Source: Candidatus Gastranaerophilales bacterium
GTDB taxonomy: Bacteria; Cyanobacteriota; Vampirovibrionia; Gastranaerophilales; Gastranaerophilaceae
DNA: 64,000 bases
NCBI GenBank assembly: GCA_944323045.1
Contig: CALUQX010000004.1
Span: forward strand, 1-64,000
Reading direction: 5' to 3'
In this document: positions 1-25,451 of the stretch, one piece after another
Layout: each line of letters begins with the position of its first letter
Position numbering within the stretch: the stretch's first letter is position 1
Program-made: the position numbers and the translations under genes
The notes under the pieces: generated by a model
Seen by the model: only the letters and a program-made list of their open reading frames with translations
Database searches by the model: none
Told to the model about the DNA's origin: nothing

Positions 1-51
1 CTTTATCTCTTAGATAATTTTGGATATCTCAATTTGTAAGTAAAAATAAAA

Positions 52-178
52 TTGCACTTTTTTGCACTTTATTGCACTGGGCTTATCTTTAAACACCTTG
101 CCGATTTTAGCCTAATGTGGTTTAAAAAAATTGCAAATGGAGTGCAAAAGAGTGCAAGAAAAGAGTACTTGAGTGCAA
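52..178. repeat. Phased TTGCACT / AGTGCAA box array
   Basis: Three direct TTGCACT boxes start at 52, 62 and 72, exactly 10 bp apart. Three inverted AGTGCAA boxes start at 141, 151 and 172. The whole has approximate dyad symmetry about position 110. No convincing gene lies between 1 and 398. A 64-codon reading frame (52-246) runs through the boxes but has no SD and no recognisable motif. One helical turn between boxes fits cooperative protein binding on one DNA face. Location beside a tRNA gene makes recombinase arm sites or an attachment-site scar possible; an operator is the alternative. Confidence 0.55.
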
Positions 179-360
179 AAAATGTCCCATGCATCTCAAT
201 ACTAAAAAACAGCCTCAATCGTGCTGTCTGTTTGATTTTTTATTAAATTTTATCTGTCTCAATGTCCCAGAAACCTATTAGTGTAAATGTGGACTTCGTC
301 CACACGTCTGGAAATCCGCTCGAACCACAAAGGGTGCTTCTTGTCGTACTACAGCAAAAT

Positions 361-396
361 AAAAGAGAGGTAAAGGAAAACCTTACCTCTCTTTTA
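361..396 (-). terminator. Rho-independent terminator of tRNA-Ile
   Basis: A near-perfect inverted repeat (arms about 361-376 and 380-396) begins 3 nt after the 3' end of the minus-strand tRNA. Its outer minus-strand arm ends in a T run interrupted by one A, the layout of an intrinsic terminator. Confidence 0.85.
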
Positions 397-398
397 TC

Positions 399-472
<74 letters not shown>

Positions 473-714
473 TTATTTCCTTTTGTCAATTTTTGTTCGG
501 CAGGTATACTTTTGAAAGGCTCTCACATAAACTCTTCGTTATATTGTTTTGTCTGATGTGTGTCCTAACCTTCGTTAGTTACCCGCATGAACTAATTTAA
601 TATAAAAAAAAATTAAAATCAACCCTTTTATAAAAATCTCATCCTTTTTTTTAAAAACTTGCCTTATTCACTTTTATATGCTATAATTGTTTCATAAATA
701 TGAGGATAAATGTT

Positions 715-1587
715 ATGAAAAATATCGTTGTTTATACTGATAACAAGGTCTCTAACATAGCTGATACTTTAATGTCTATCGATGATGCTAATGTACGCAT
801 TGAAGACGCCGCCAACCTTAGAGACTACGAAACTCTTAATCCGGGATTGATTGTAATCGAAAATGTTCCAAACATCACTGATGTGCTTATGGTGACTAAA
901 TTTAAATCCCCTGTTTTGTTTATTAATAATGTATTTAATAACACAACCGTTAGAGCTGTCGCTTTTGACTTTATAAAAACGCCGATTGATAATGATGAAT
1001 TGTTGATTAGAGCTAAATGTCTTTTGAAAATTAAAGAACTAAGAGATAAAATTAAACTGGTCTCCACAACAGATGAACTCACAGGTTTGCACAATCGTAA
1101 ATATCTTCAAGAACGTCTGGAACAAGAAATTTCCAGAGCTAAACGTTATGGGACTAAACTCTCCTGTTTGTTATTCGATTTAGACTTTTTCAAAGTCGTA
1201 AATGATATCTATGGCTATGAATGGGGTGATGTGCTCCTTCGTTCTATTGCTGATAAATTAAAACAACTTATAAGAAAAGAAGATATTCTGACACGTTATG
1301 GCGATGAAGAATTCCTTCTTATTCTGCCTAACACTTCCGAAGACAATGCTTTTCTTTTCGCTGAAAGATTCAGACGCGACATTGAACGCATGGAATTCAT
1401 TCCGGCTGGCGAAGAAGAAAGACACCCGATTACAATCTCCGGCGGCATTTCTACTTTCCCTTGTCTGGAAAACACAGAAGAAGATGCCAACACTATTATC
1501 CGTTATGCAGAACACGCACTTTACAATGCAAAAAAACGTGGTAAAAATAAAATTGTTCAGTTCTCTAAGCTGAATCTTGGAGAATAA
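715..1587 (+). CDS. GGDEF-domain protein with degenerate receiver domain
   Basis: Predicted cytosolic two-domain signalling protein of 290 residues. Residues 1-105 resemble a CheY-like receiver but no Asp is found at the phospho-acceptor position (LIVIENVP, 45-52). Residues 115-285 are a GGDEF domain with the usual opening (DELTGLHNRKYL), the metal-binding FDLDFFK strand and an RxxD inhibitory I-site (RKED, 187-190). The signature reads GDEEF (196-200) instead of GGDEF/GGEEF, so the second glycine, which contacts GTP in active enzymes, is replaced by Asp. Activity is therefore uncertain; it could be a c-di-GMP effector. The ATG at 715 is chosen over 700 because GAGGA (702-706) is a good SD for it. 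A TGC-TATAAT promoter lies at 679-687. Confidence 0.88.
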   Translation: MKNIVVYTDNKVSNIADTLMSIDDANVRIEDAANLRDYETLNPGLIVIENVPNITDVLMVTKFKSPVLFINNVFNNTTVRAVAFDFIKTPIDNDELLIRAKCLLKIKELRDKIKLVSTTDELTGLHNRKYLQERLEQEISRAKRYGTKLSCLLFDLDFFKVVNDIYGYEWGDVLLRSIADKLKQLIRKEDILTRYGDEEFLLILPNTSEDNAFLFAERFRRDIERMEFIPAGEEERHPITISGGISTFPCLENTEEDANTIIRYAEHALYNAKKRGKNKIVQFSKLNLGE

Positions 1588-2504: not shown

Positions 2505-3917
2505 ATGTACGAATTATCCAGCAGGATTGAAAACGATAATTTAATATTTGTTGAAAACGTTAAAAATCTTCAGGGCGTTGATTTGTCAAAAAAGTCTCTT
2601 TGTATTATTAAAACTGATTTTTCTGATACTGCTGCCATCCGAAAAATTTGTAAGGAGAATCCGGAGCTTGAGGTTTGGATTGCCTCCGGTGATATCTCCA
2701 GAAAAAATGTATTAACTGCAAATTCATGCGGGGTAAAAAATGTAATTTCATATCCGGTTGACGCAAGATTGGTTCAGGATTTCTTTAGAGATAAAAATAA
2801 AGCAGAAAAGTTTGGCGAAAATTTTTCTGCCAGTTTTTTAAAAGGGATGAAGGTAATGATTGTTGATGACAATCAGATGAATATTGACCTTCTGGTTGAA
2901 ACGCTTGCGCCAATGGGGTTGGATTTGCAAACCTTTATAAAACCCGTTGAGGCAAGCAAAATTGTTAACCTTGAAAAATTCGATTTGTTTTTACTTGATA
3001 TTATGATGCCGGAGATGTCCGGATTTGACCTTGCTAAAATTATTAAAGGAACTACTATAAATTGTAATGTGCCGATAATGTTTATTTCAGCACTTTCAGA
3101 TCCTGAAAATAAAATTCTTGGTTATAATCTTGGTTCATGCGCCTATATTGAAAAACCTTTTAATATAAATGTTGTGCGTTCCCAGATTTATAACACTTTG
3201 AAAACAAAATTACTACAGGATGCACTGCTTGATAGAAAAGAAACATTTCTTGCTATGGTTACACATGATTTAAAATCTCCGGTAAATGCAGAGATTTGCG
3301 CGTTAGAACTTTTGTTGAAAAACAAGACATCTTCACTTGACGGGGTTCAGCACGAAATAATAGGTGATATTCTTGGCGCGGCTAAATATATGAAAAATCT
3401 TGTTGAAAATATTTTGCAAAAATATAAGTGCGAAAACGGAAAACAGGTTATGCATAAAACGCTGTTTTCACTTGAAATGCTTACGATTCAATGTATTGAA
3501 GAGGTGAAATATCTGCTTGAAGATAAACAGCTTGAAATTAGTTTGAATTCTTCTATAAAAAATATTGAAACATATTTCGACTGCCTTGAAATAAAAAGAG
3601 TTATTCACAATTTGCTTATTAATGCTATAGAGTACAGTAATAAGAATTCTAACATTCAGATTAACCTGTTTGAGAAAGATAATAGCGTTGCATTTTCAAT
3701 AACAAACAGCGGTATAGGTATCAATTTTGAAACACAGGAACAGATTTTTGACAAGTTGGAAAGTTTTGCGCAAAAGAATAAGAGTTTGGGCACAGGACTC
3801 GGATTGTATATTTCAAAAAAGATTATAGATGCACATAATGGTGAGATTCACGTGGAAAGTGACGGCAATAATTACACGACATTTACCTTTACTTTGCCTG
3901 AAGATGCCCGCAAATAA
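2505..3917 (+). CDS. Response-regulator/histidine-kinase hybrid
   Basis: Cytosolic two-component sensor of 470 residues without membrane segments. Order: an N-terminal receiver-like fold without phosphorylation residues (about 1-95), a canonical receiver (115-235; acidic pair D121-D122, phospho-acceptor D165 in LLDIMMPEMSG, Lys217), a HisKA helix pair with H254 in MVTHDLKSPVN, and a HATPase domain with N box (HNLLINAIEYSN), G1 box NSGIGI in place of DxGxG, an F box and G2 box GTGLGL. The receiver in front of the kinase suggests it relays a signal from another kinase. Its 3' end overlaps convergent prmC by 29 bp. The partner regulator is not in the window. Confidence 0.92.
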   Translation: MYELSSRIENDNLIFVENVKNLQGVDLSKKSLCIIKTDFSDTAAIRKICKENPELEVWIASGDISRKNVLTANSCGVKNVISYPVDARLVQDFFRDKNKAEKFGENFSASFLKGMKVMIVDDNQMNIDLLVETLAPMGLDLQTFIKPVEASKIVNLEKFDLFLLDIMMPEMSGFDLAKIIKGTTINCNVPIMFISALSDPENKILGYNLGSCAYIEKPFNINVVRSQIYNTLKTKLLQDALLDRKETFLAMVTHDLKSPVNAEICALELLLKNKTSSLDGVQHEIIGDILGAAKYMKNLVENILQKYKCENGKQVMHKTLFSLEMLTIQCIEEVKYLLEDKQLEISLNSSIKNIETYFDCLEIKRVIHNLLINAIEYSNKNSNIQINLFEKDNSVAFSITNSGIGINFETQEQIFDKLESFAQKNKSLGTGLGLYISKKIIDAHNGEIHVESDGNNYTTFTFTLPEDARK

Positions 3918-8574: not shown

Positions 8575-9747
8575 ATGCAAGATGATTTGATAAAAAAATT
8601 AACCGGTAAAAACAAGGCTGATTATGAGCAGGCTGCGGCACACCTTGTAAACACTCCTGATGTTGAAATGTTTAAAGAACTCGTTGCAAAAGACGATTTT
8701 TTGTTTGAGTTCGTAAAGCAAAATGTCAATGAACGGCTTTCTAACGCAGTTAATCCGGCTAATTACAAAAATCTTTTTGCATTGATGAAAGTTTATTCCC
8801 CCTCTTATGAAGATTTTATAATAAATTCTTTTGTTAAATATGCGAATGAAGACCTGACTGACGAAATGCTTAATCTGCTTGAAAATGGCAGTGATGACGA
8901 AAAGATATATTGCGCAAAGTATTTTTCTAAAGTGCAAGACCCTCTGGCAATAGATGCCCTGCGTAAAAATGCGTTTTCTGATAATGAATCGCTAAATTAC
9001 AATTGTGCACTTGCATTAGGCATTTTTAAAGACCAACAATCGTATGTCAGTGCGCTTGAGATGCTTAAGAGTGAGGACGAATTTGTAAAACTTAATGGGG
9101 TTAAGTTTTTGTCAGCATATGGTGATATCTCCGCAATACCATTTATTATAGAAACAATGCAATCGTCATCAATGAGTGAAAATATTGCGGGTGAAATACC
9201 GTATTTACAAAATATTTTTTCGCTTTTAGACAGCGATTATACCGGCGCTTTGCTTGTAATCAACAATATTATTAACGGTCTGGGTGAAATTATCCCGCTT
9301 TCGTGTGTTTTTGATTATGAACTGTTTGAAGTTTTTGAGCGTCTGATTTACAGGGATGAAGACAGTAAAGCCGCTGTCGTGCTTTTAAACGCCCGGGAAA
9401 AATTTAATACTTTGACAGAGAATGACGAATATCTTTATGATGAAGATAAGGATACAAAAAACGAAATTCTGGATATCAAAAAACTTCTTTATGATATAGA
9501 CACAAAGAACTTGGAACAACTAATTAAAGCAGAATTGAGTGAAAACAGCCCATTTGTCTATACAGCACTGGATTTTACGGAGGATATTTATGCAGTACGG
9601 GAGTTGTTGAAGGCAAATAATCAGACACTAATATTAAAAACAGCCGAAATATTGAAAAAATTGGGCAGTCTGGATGAAAATACAAAAACAGTTGCGCTTT
9701 TGAAGGTTACTGATACAAATATTAAATCAATCATACGGGCATTGTAA
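8575..9747 (+). CDS. HEAT-like repeat protein
   Basis: A 390-residue acidic, all-helical cytosolic protein with no signal peptide. Residues about 95-215 hold successive helix pairs of HEAT type (DDEKIYCAKYFSKVQDPLAIDALRK; ESLNYNCALALGIF; DEFVKLNGVKFLSAYGDISAIPFIIE). The rest is helical but divergent. Such proteins are generally scaffolds; nothing here indicates a partner. SD-like AAAGA lies 8 nt before the ATG. It is a single gene, and the composite repeat island starts at its stop codon. Confidence 0.8.
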   Translation: MQDDLIKKLTGKNKADYEQAAAHLVNTPDVEMFKELVAKDDFLFEFVKQNVNERLSNAVNPANYKNLFALMKVYSPSYEDFIINSFVKYANEDLTDEMLNLLENGSDDEKIYCAKYFSKVQDPLAIDALRKNAFSDNESLNYNCALALGIFKDQQSYVSALEMLKSEDEFVKLNGVKFLSAYGDISAIPFIIETMQSSSMSENIAGEIPYLQNIFSLLDSDYTGALLVINNIINGLGEIIPLSCVFDYELFEVFERLIYRDEDSKAAVVLLNAREKFNTLTENDEYLYDEDKDTKNEILDIKKLLYDIDTKNLEQLIKAELSENSPFVYTALDFTEDIYAVRELLKANNQTLILKTAEILKKLGSLDENTKTVALLKVTDTNIKSIIRAL

Positions 9748-24296: not shown

Positions 24297-25451
24297 ATGA
24301 TAGAAAAATTAAATGGCGTACAGTTTACAGGAAAAGTACAGAATAGTAAATCTGTATCCAAACCCGAAAAAGAAAATAAACAGGAACAACCTAAACAGGT
24401 TGTAGTTGTGTCTAAAGACGGTGCCCGTGCATTACGCAACTATGCAATGGGTATTTTAGCTGCATTAGGAACAACAATAGCTGCACCTACATTAACAAGT
24501 TGCGATGATGACTTTGCTCCAGATATAGATATTAATCATAAAGACAGCACCGTCGTAAATGTAGATTTTCATCCAGTGCCGCAAAAACCGGATACATTTA
24601 TTATAAAGGTTCCGGAAATTGTAACAGATACAATTTATAAAACTGACACAATTTATCAAGACAAACCGATTTACCTGCCGGGAGATACGATTTATCATAC
24701 AGATACAATTTATCAAGATAAACCAATCTATCTGCCAGGCGATACAATCTATCAAACAGATACAATTTATCAAAAAGTTCCGGAAATTGTAAGAGATACT
24801 ATCTTCCAGAAAGATACAGTTTATCAGGAAGTTCCTATTTATCTCCCTGGTGACACAATCCATGATACTATCAGAGTAGAAATTCCTGGCGAAACAGTCT
24901 ATATCAAACCTGATTACGAATCAGAAGTTGCAGACTCATTAATTGCCCACGCTAAAAATCTCGGATTAGATGTAGATAACGGCGGCAAAATTCCTACACG
25001 TATCCACGCATTTGACCAGTGGAATTCAACAGACCACGATTTAGTATTTGACGGTCGTTCTTCTTCTGAAGAAACAATGACATTCATTGACAGAAAACGT
25101 GATTACAGATTTGATGCTTACAACCCAACTTTAGGCTACAGCAAATGCGAATTCTCAGTAGACTACGGCAAAGGTGTAACATTCGATCATTACAACTCAC
25201 GTTATGAAGGTGTAAAACCTGACAGCAAAAATGATTGGATTCACACAGGCAGAGTTTGTCTGACAAACTTAAACAACGGATTCATCAAACGCTCACAATA
25301 TGATGAAAACGGCGGACTTATAGAAGAAGGTTCTTACGAAAAAGGTGCTCCGGAAGTAAGTTTCTACGAAAACATCATAAGTCCTAGCGGTTATACTGAT
25401 TCTTACTCCTGGACAGAAGGAAAAATGTATACAAGCAATCCTAAAAAATAA
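24297..25451 (+). CDS. Lipoprotein-like secreted protein with 19-residue repeats
   Basis: Unrecognised 384-residue protein. The V-x-F-x-G cap is VQFTG (8-12), followed by a polar linker and then VSKDGARALRNYAMGILAALGTTIAAPTLTSC, which is like a lipoprotein signal ending at Cys69 and followed by DDD. Residues 112-205 are four to five repeats of TIYxTDTIYQDKPIYLPGD. The C-terminal domain (HAFDQWNSTDHDLVFDG, TFIDRKRDY, VSFYENIISPSGYTDSY) is shared with the gene at 25646. GGAGG precedes the ATG at 24297. Acidic residues after the lipobox recall the surface-export signal of Bacteroidetes lipoproteins. Surface display is inferred. Confidence 0.82.
   Translation: MIEKLNGVQFTGKVQNSKSVSKPEKENKQEQPKQVVVVSKDGARALRNYAMGILAALGTTIAAPTLTSCDDDFAPDIDINHKDSTVVNVDFHPVPQKPDTFIIKVPEIVTDTIYKTDTIYQDKPIYLPGDTIYHTDTIYQDKPIYLPGDTIYQTDTIYQKVPEIVRDTIFQKDTVYQEVPIYLPGDTIHDTIRVEIPGETVYIKPDYESEVADSLIAHAKNLGLDVDNGGKIPTRIHAFDQWNSTDHDLVFDGRSSSEETMTFIDRKRDYRFDAYNPTLGYSKCEFSVDYGKGVTFDHYNSRYEGVKPDSKNDWIHTGRVCLTNLNNGFIKRSQYDENGGLIEEGSYEKGAPEVSFYENIISPSGYTDSYSWTEGKMYTSNPKK
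24630..24854 (+). repeat. 57-bp tandem repeats coding 19-residue units
   Basis: Units start at 24630, 24687, 24744 (54 bp, diverged) and 24798. They code TIYKTDTIYQDKPIYLPGD and variants. The first two differ mainly at synonymous sites, so the protein repeat appears selected. The paralog at 25646 has only a single diverged unit. Confidence 0.85.

Follow-up and report, generated by a model that had tools for sequence, protein, structure and literature searches.

The six TTGCACT boxes lying beside a tRNA-Ile gene in a genome of Candidatus Gastranaerophilales are very probably part of the terminal region of a transposon that targets the region downstream of tRNA and tmRNA genes and directs its transposase end toward the tRNA, likely with the aid of three of its own proteins: C (choice of target), B (bridge) and A (insertion). 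The computational evidence comprises the gene cassette, its orientation, the ends of the element, the geometry of the boxes, one perfect target duplication and a dependence of C on the target. The window, i.e. the whole stretch of DNA analysed, covers bases 1-64,000 of contig C4. Window base 1 is the contig end, and therefore no leftward reading is possible in this assembly. The features of the window are as follows (coordinates, strand, description):

1-280, plus strand: tRNA-proximal terminal region of the transposon, recurring in relatives beside tRNA-Ile; the remainder would lie to the left, past the contig end
26-35, plus strand: conserved inner site ATCTCAATTT, within a stretch left of box 1 that is conserved in 55 distinct arrays
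52-78, plus strand: direct TTGCACT triplet, boxes at 52, 62 and 72 (spacing 10 and 10 bp)
79-140, no strand: central spacer, poorly conserved in sequence and almost constant in length
141-178, minus strand: inverted triplet, boxes at 141, 151 and 172 (spacing 10 and 21 bp)
193-214, plus strand: conserved outer site ATCTCAATACTAAAAAACAGCC, within a stretch right of box 6 that is conserved in 55 distinct arrays
263-280, plus strand: terminal 18-mer TGTCCCAGAAACCTATTA; the element ends at 280/281 and sequences diverge beyond
about 361-395: terminator-like hairpin between the element end and tRNA-Ile
399-472, minus strand: tRNA-Ile(GAT), the inferred target, its 3' end facing the array

All six boxes described in a sequence-only reading of this DNA were verified in the window sequence. 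The exact 10-bp phase ascribed to them there applies to five of the six and fails at the 21-bp step from 151 to 172. Dinucleotide shuffles predict 13.2 box matches per 64 kb, equivalent to approximately 0.026 per 127 bp, where six are seen. The genome-wide scan for the phased motif that the same reading had proposed gave three matches to TTGCACTNNNTTGCACT in the own genome, every one of them at the window array, and none to a reversed control pattern.

The element end at position 280 is separated from the 3' end of tRNA-Ile by 118 bp. Within this interval, positions 281-325 hold a short sequence with copies of 87-90% identity on contigs C2, C18, C19 and C32 of the own genome, which looks like a dispersed small repeat. 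On the other side of the tRNA, a gene at 700-1587, GGDEF-like by appearance, adjoins tRNA-Ile in 5 of 6 genomes of the genus (the own genome included), which marks the right flank as ancestral host sequence.

The extent of the terminal region was deduced by comparison of window positions 1-800 with 59 genomes, the own genome among them. Matches begin at window position 1, 5 or 8 and stop near 280, which delimits a unit separate from the tRNA flank. This unit of about 280 bp adjoins tRNA-Ile(GAT) in several genera, and some of its copies lie beside a gene for a protein of about 619 aa. Its terminus, with the consensus TGTCCYRNNAAMNTATWA at tRNA-proximal ends, occurs on a single strand in each locus listed, and TGTCCCAGAAACCTATTA or a variant of it points to the tRNA wherever the stretch contains one. 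Several loci hold fragments of earlier ends between the present end and the tRNA, as if elements had landed repeatedly at one place.

In the relatives, the cassette consists of four genes in the order A (about 619 aa), B (AAA/TniB ATPase), C (about 186 aa) and D (helix-turn-helix protein of about 132 aa). Protein A is a DDE transposase of the Mu/TnsB type (Pfam Mu-transpos_C, 3.6e-13; PHROG transposase), whose residues D207, D274 and E320 are invariant in 12/12 aligned proteins of relatives. Its PDB matches include TnsB and the transposase 4fcy, which we take to be MuA, and its identity with phage transposases was 21-29% among the 20 of 159 matches listed. The PDB matches of B are headed by clamp-loader subunits, followed by TnsC and MuB-type ‘target DNA activator B’. 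Among the 58 clade loci with at least 2.2 kb of downstream sequence, B was present in 58, C in 57 and D in 57; only 1 of 20 distant loci encodes D. The D protein of locus L054 shows a weak match to small-terminase-type helix-turn-helix models, and in genome G011 an endolysin-like gene adjoins the array.

Ten cargo proteins scanned from the G067 and G046 loci included several type I restriction-modification subunits, together with single matches to AbiJ-like and QatA-like models; the G046 locus also holds a McrBC-type protein. No CRISPR genes were found among the proteins scanned, which cover a selection of the cargo. Proteins of 179-187 aa resembling tyrosine recombinases by appearance are encoded in the cargo of three loci (L044:5446-5985, L105:10445-11008 and L252:17273-17812), where, judging again by appearance, they sit near hipBA-like genes.

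A scan of named genomes gave 502 relatives, the best 80 of which were analysed, although these loci are not independent of one another. The records are mostly Candidatus Gastranaerophilales, Melainabacteria and gut or rumen MAGs, while four of the 80 are labelled, by record title alone, Clostridia, Fusobacterium, Clostridiaceae and Acinetobacter. The first relatives had arrays or transposases beside tRNA-Ile, Leu, Lys, Met, Ser, Asp, Arg and Gly. Across the 80 loci a target was identified in 59, and it belongs to 20 kinds. The 3' end of a tRNA or tmRNA gene faces the transposase in 53 of the 66 loci with at least 3.4 kb of upstream sequence, and the opposite direction was found once; no downstream tRNA or tmRNA was present in the 57 loci with at least 3.4 kb of downstream sequence. 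The terminus was located in 30 of 35 hand-picked short ends, 40-204 bp (median 75) past the tRNA or tmRNA 3' end. Of the 20 distant relatives (51-58% identity), 9 have a tRNA in the same orientation within the stretch fetched. In an empty-site comparison for G046, the match to the one other genome of its genus was limited to 85 bases at the tRNA.

Protein C may explain this variety of targets. The short C of the clade carries an integrase core-binding domain (L102, 2.1e-11; marginal in L054, with Pfam 0.017 and PHROG integrase 4.6e-6), and the four aligned C proteins of the window's clade have no catalytic domain. Several distant relatives encode a longer C that has the catalytic domain too, where the arginine of TG[LIM]R, the tyrosine-integrase motif used for this comparison, is replaced in 6 of 7 aligned long C proteins and kept in L143. 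The PDB match of C is XerA. The predicted structure of the L102 protein combines a winged helix with a core-binding bundle (mean pLDDT 78.7), and Foldseek aligned this model with integrase domains (best E 9.9e-4). As judged by sequence only, C thus has the makings of a tyrosine-recombinase-derived protein devoid of recombinase activity.

The relationship between C and the target was analysed in the 47 loci that have all of A-D and an identified target, using pairs with less than 90% identity in A. The identity of C was 0.627 in same-target pairs versus 0.479 in different-target pairs, and after regression on A the residual of C was +0.139, a value reached in 0/2000 permutations. The same permutation test revealed no link with the target for B (p=0.81) or D (p=0.37). 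The link with C persists in 33 dereplicated loci (0/2000) and when tRNA-Ile is left out (p=0.002), and the nearest neighbour shares the target in 19/32 cases for C versus 2 for A, 0 for B and 2 for D. No excess for C was observed with tRNA-Leu(GAG) and tRNA-Met (2 pairs each), and the C protein that G046 encodes at tRNA-Leu hardly differs from the one in the tRNA-Ile element of G018. As C, corrected for A, follows the target tRNA, and B and D do not, C is likely the target selector.

The other distant C proteins (L139-L158) differ widely in their C-terminal half, e.g. in L147, L148, L155 and L158; that of L155 has no family match, and L149 and L153 each have two C-type genes in tandem. The differing C-terminal halves and tandem genes suggest an exchange of selector modules. 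We think it likely that C would bind the tRNA locus and recruit B, that B would form the bridge, and that A would then insert the element about 40-200 bp beyond the 3' end of the tRNA, which would create a 5-bp duplication.

Target duplications were sought at 10 proximal ends from 9 genomes, with G061 left out because its terminus was not located. One of the 10 was resolved. The insertion in G067, bounded by TAATAGG... and ...TTTATA, has CTTGC on both sides, i.e. a perfect 5-bp duplication, and an older array which it interrupted continues on both sides. The inserted segment is 24.9 kb long and holds at least one later nested insertion as well as a truncated second transposase, so it is not one simple element. 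In G001, CCCAG is common to both ends, which lie on two contigs. Strict duplication matches were also obtained for G059, G062, G065 and G066, where the interrupted target does not continue, and none for G060, G063, G068 and G046.

The proximal termini are of the form TATA, TAATA or TTATA, and the distal ones of the TTTATA type. Elements of the MuA/TnsB kind are expected to end in TG...CA, which was found neither at the proximal nor at the distal ends. The distal ends share the motif AATCTT...TTTATA; searched at 3 mismatches it is not specific, because the reversed control also matches in at least 14 of 59 genomes. None of the five distal ends examined has a box array (TTGCAC 0 or 1 and GTGCAA 0 per 626 bp). 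A symmetrical element bearing the same end twice is not supported: no inverted proximal terminus was detected at fewer than 8 mismatches in 24 loci, and the 18-mer gave no inverted copy at up to 1 mismatch, in addition to the lack of the array at the five distal ends.

The six-box architecture, with mismatches allowed, was found in 57 of the 80 clade loci; 23 are without the full architecture under the rule used, and some of these have short upstream sequence. With the same tolerance for mismatches, the direct triplet was found in 0 of 240 mononucleotide-shuffled upstream regions. Irrespective of the tRNA, 76 of the 80 loci have two or more exact boxes in the 2.5 kb upstream, so the boxes are a property of the element rather than of the target. 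The distance from box 1 to box 4, searched for between 55 and 259 bp, is 87-89 bp in 55 of the 57 loci (89 in the window; 79 and 180 in the others), and that from box 5 to box 6, for which only 19-21 bp was allowed, is either 20 bp (42 loci) or 21 bp (15 loci; also 21 in the window). The array was not found in the 20 distant loci.

Conservation was assessed in 55 distinct arrays with 85-91 bp between boxes 1 and 4, i.e. 55 loci plus the window minus one duplicate. The hexamer TTGCAC is almost invariant in most boxes, and the 33 positions that follow box 3 have a mean information of 0.61 bits, versus 1.1-1.4 around the boxes. A spacer constant in length and free in sequence argues for a protein-DNA fold, and the cooperative protein binding envisaged in the sequence-only reading is fitted by such rigid phasing across relatives. 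Repeat-like inserts, richer in GC, occur within or between triplets or in their flanks (L048 near 2965-3027, L057 near 8720-8810 and the G067 composite at 24545-24640).

The direct triplet TTGCACTNNNTTGCACTNNNTTGCACT was also encountered in 15 viral-contig stretches, and in seven of the viral contigs (L277, L280, L282, L283, L284, L286 and L287) it lies near a tRNA-Met/Arg/Leu cluster. A viral origin of the array was rejected, since the 15 stretches have neither a match to transposase A nor the six-box geometry; perhaps they represent an unrelated phage array. Given that they carry the direct triplet alone, this triplet has no diagnostic value on its own.

In the ends analysed, the array was seen at the transposase end alone, where it separates the terminus from gene A. 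We suggest that the boxes are probably the sites of a looped protein-DNA complex formed at this one end. Most likely A or D would bind them and fold the end into a loop, which would either assemble the transposition complex or shut off the transposase promoter. The chances seem about even that the boxes have a role in the transposition complex, possibly combined with autoregulation. A somewhat less probable but serious possibility is that they are merely an operator, at which D or another repressor turns off the transposase gene, and have no function in transposition as such. The position of the boxes ahead of gene A would suit an operator, as would their lack at the five distal ends and the parallel scarcity of D and of the array in the 20 distant loci; however, the association of D with the boxes holds only at the level of a single clade, and the fixed 87-89 bp between the triplets suits a transposition complex as well. 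It is very improbable that the complementary boxes act as an RNA hairpin in a transcript rather than as protein sites in DNA. TTGCACT and AGTGCAA are indeed complementary, and a terminator-like hairpin follows in Ile-type ends, but the array has no Rfam match at the gathering threshold, which only tRNA and tmRNA reached. Moreover, box 2 ends in A in 13 of the 55 arrays without a corresponding change in the first base of box 5, which stays A, and the spacings of the two triplets differ (10 and 10 versus 10 and 20-21 bp); such changes, unmatched between the triplets, argue against RNA pairing.

The sequence-only reading had raised the option that the boxes are recombinase arm sites of an integrated or lost element with its body to the left of the window. 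The integrated element with a leftward body is borne out by the relatives, where the array forms one end of a transposon of the DDE (MuA/TnsB) type. The arm sites are not, as this transposon has a 5-bp target duplication in the resolved case. We therefore regard it as highly unlikely that a tyrosine recombinase put the element into tRNA-Ile using the boxes as its arm sites. Phased repeats beside a tRNA would be compatible with such an event, and in G004 the array is separated from the intact tRNA by a tyrosine-integrase element, whose array side carries 42 nt copied from the tRNA 3' end; copies of 42-44 nt of the tRNA-Ile 3' end are also present in G018, G015, G014 and G026. The window array, however, has no adjoining copy of this kind on the side that the contig covers: the own-genome search with window 1-480 revealed no duplicated tRNA-Ile 3' end beside it, only weak partial matches elsewhere (76% over window 356-424, on C16, and 74% over 413-477, on C10). 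Furthermore, a DDE transposase accompanies the array, which occurs at a wide range of tRNAs, and the four aligned clade C proteins have no catalytic domain. The arrays at other tRNAs and the 5-bp duplication largely refute the arm-site interpretation. The G004 integrase element (L046:2108-13675), approximately 11.5 kb long and with its tRNA 3' copy on the far side from the intact tRNA-Ile, is distinct from the transposon to which the array belongs, therefore two unrelated types of element use the same tRNA.

As for the copy in the window, it is either an element cut off by the contig end or one reduced to a solo end. The own genome gave no match to the transposase, and none to the motif of the distal ends with as many as 3 mismatches allowed, a setting that is not specific. 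Both results would agree with a dead solo end left in this species, which we consider possible but doubtful. The contig breaks off where the array has its inner edge, and other MAGs contain elements with 98% identity over A, which may break assemblies; in G001, too, where the two ends of the element fall on different contigs, the transposase has no match.

The transposon inferred from the array shares features with several known systems. Phage Mu has operator/enhancer sites between its left end and gene A, the position that the boxes occupy here; A and B are relatives of MuA and MuB, and the 5-bp duplication of the one resolved case also recalls Mu. Unlike Mu, these elements are directed to tRNA genes, and their scanned cargo consists of restriction-modification, McrBC and similar genes. 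They share with tyrosine-integrase tRNA islands the genomic address and the core-binding domain of C, and differ from them in having a DDE transposase and a clade C without catalytic domain, and in that no tRNA duplication by the element itself was seen.

The closest parallel concerns the selector. Faure et al. (2023, PMC10293859) describe TnsF as an inactivated tyrosine-recombinase protein with zinc fingers and two core-binding domains, which targets comM together with TniQ. The elements studied here resemble the Tn6022-like Tn7 elements with TnsF, as presented there, in being transposons of the TnsB/TnsC kind with an inactivated, tyrosine-recombinase-derived target selector. C differs from TnsF so described in having a winged helix, one core-binding domain and, in the model, no N-terminal zinc fingers, and its targets are many tRNA and tmRNA genes, in contrast to comM. 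TniQ was not found among the cassette proteins scanned with Pfam, and a search for the TniQ family gave 0/12 genomes, with 14 control genomes also at 0, so that this search was uninformative. The differences in domains and targets set these elements apart from those with TnsF, as a variant. According to the same paper (PMC10293859), tRNA homing of Tn7-like elements and CASTs is selected by TnsD, and CyCAST inserts 30-33 nt downstream of the tRNA gene. Insertion just downstream of a tRNA gene is thus common to both, while an integrase-derived protein is implicated here in place of the TnsD of CyCAST. No description of such elements in Gastranaerophilales was found in the open-access literature, searched by titles and the beginnings of abstracts, a scope that most subscription journals fall outside.

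Taken as a whole, we consider it rather probable that Mu-related transposons of gut Gastranaerophilales switch their tRNA/tmRNA landing site by changing one small selector, derived from the DNA-binding half of a tyrosine integrase, without TniQ; that the helically phased six-box array at one of their ends is a length-rigid folding platform for transposition or its control; and that these transposons pile up beside one and the same tRNA, with defence genes as cargo. The borrowing of target selectors is a habit of Tn7-type elements. If our view is true, a stripped-down integrase would pick among about 20 tRNA/tmRNA targets, hence its code would be readable by comparing natural variants, and it might perhaps be re-aimed at new safe sites. 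Defence islands may accumulate beside tRNA genes without integrase chemistry, and what was an anonymous repeat array becomes a testable transposition site.
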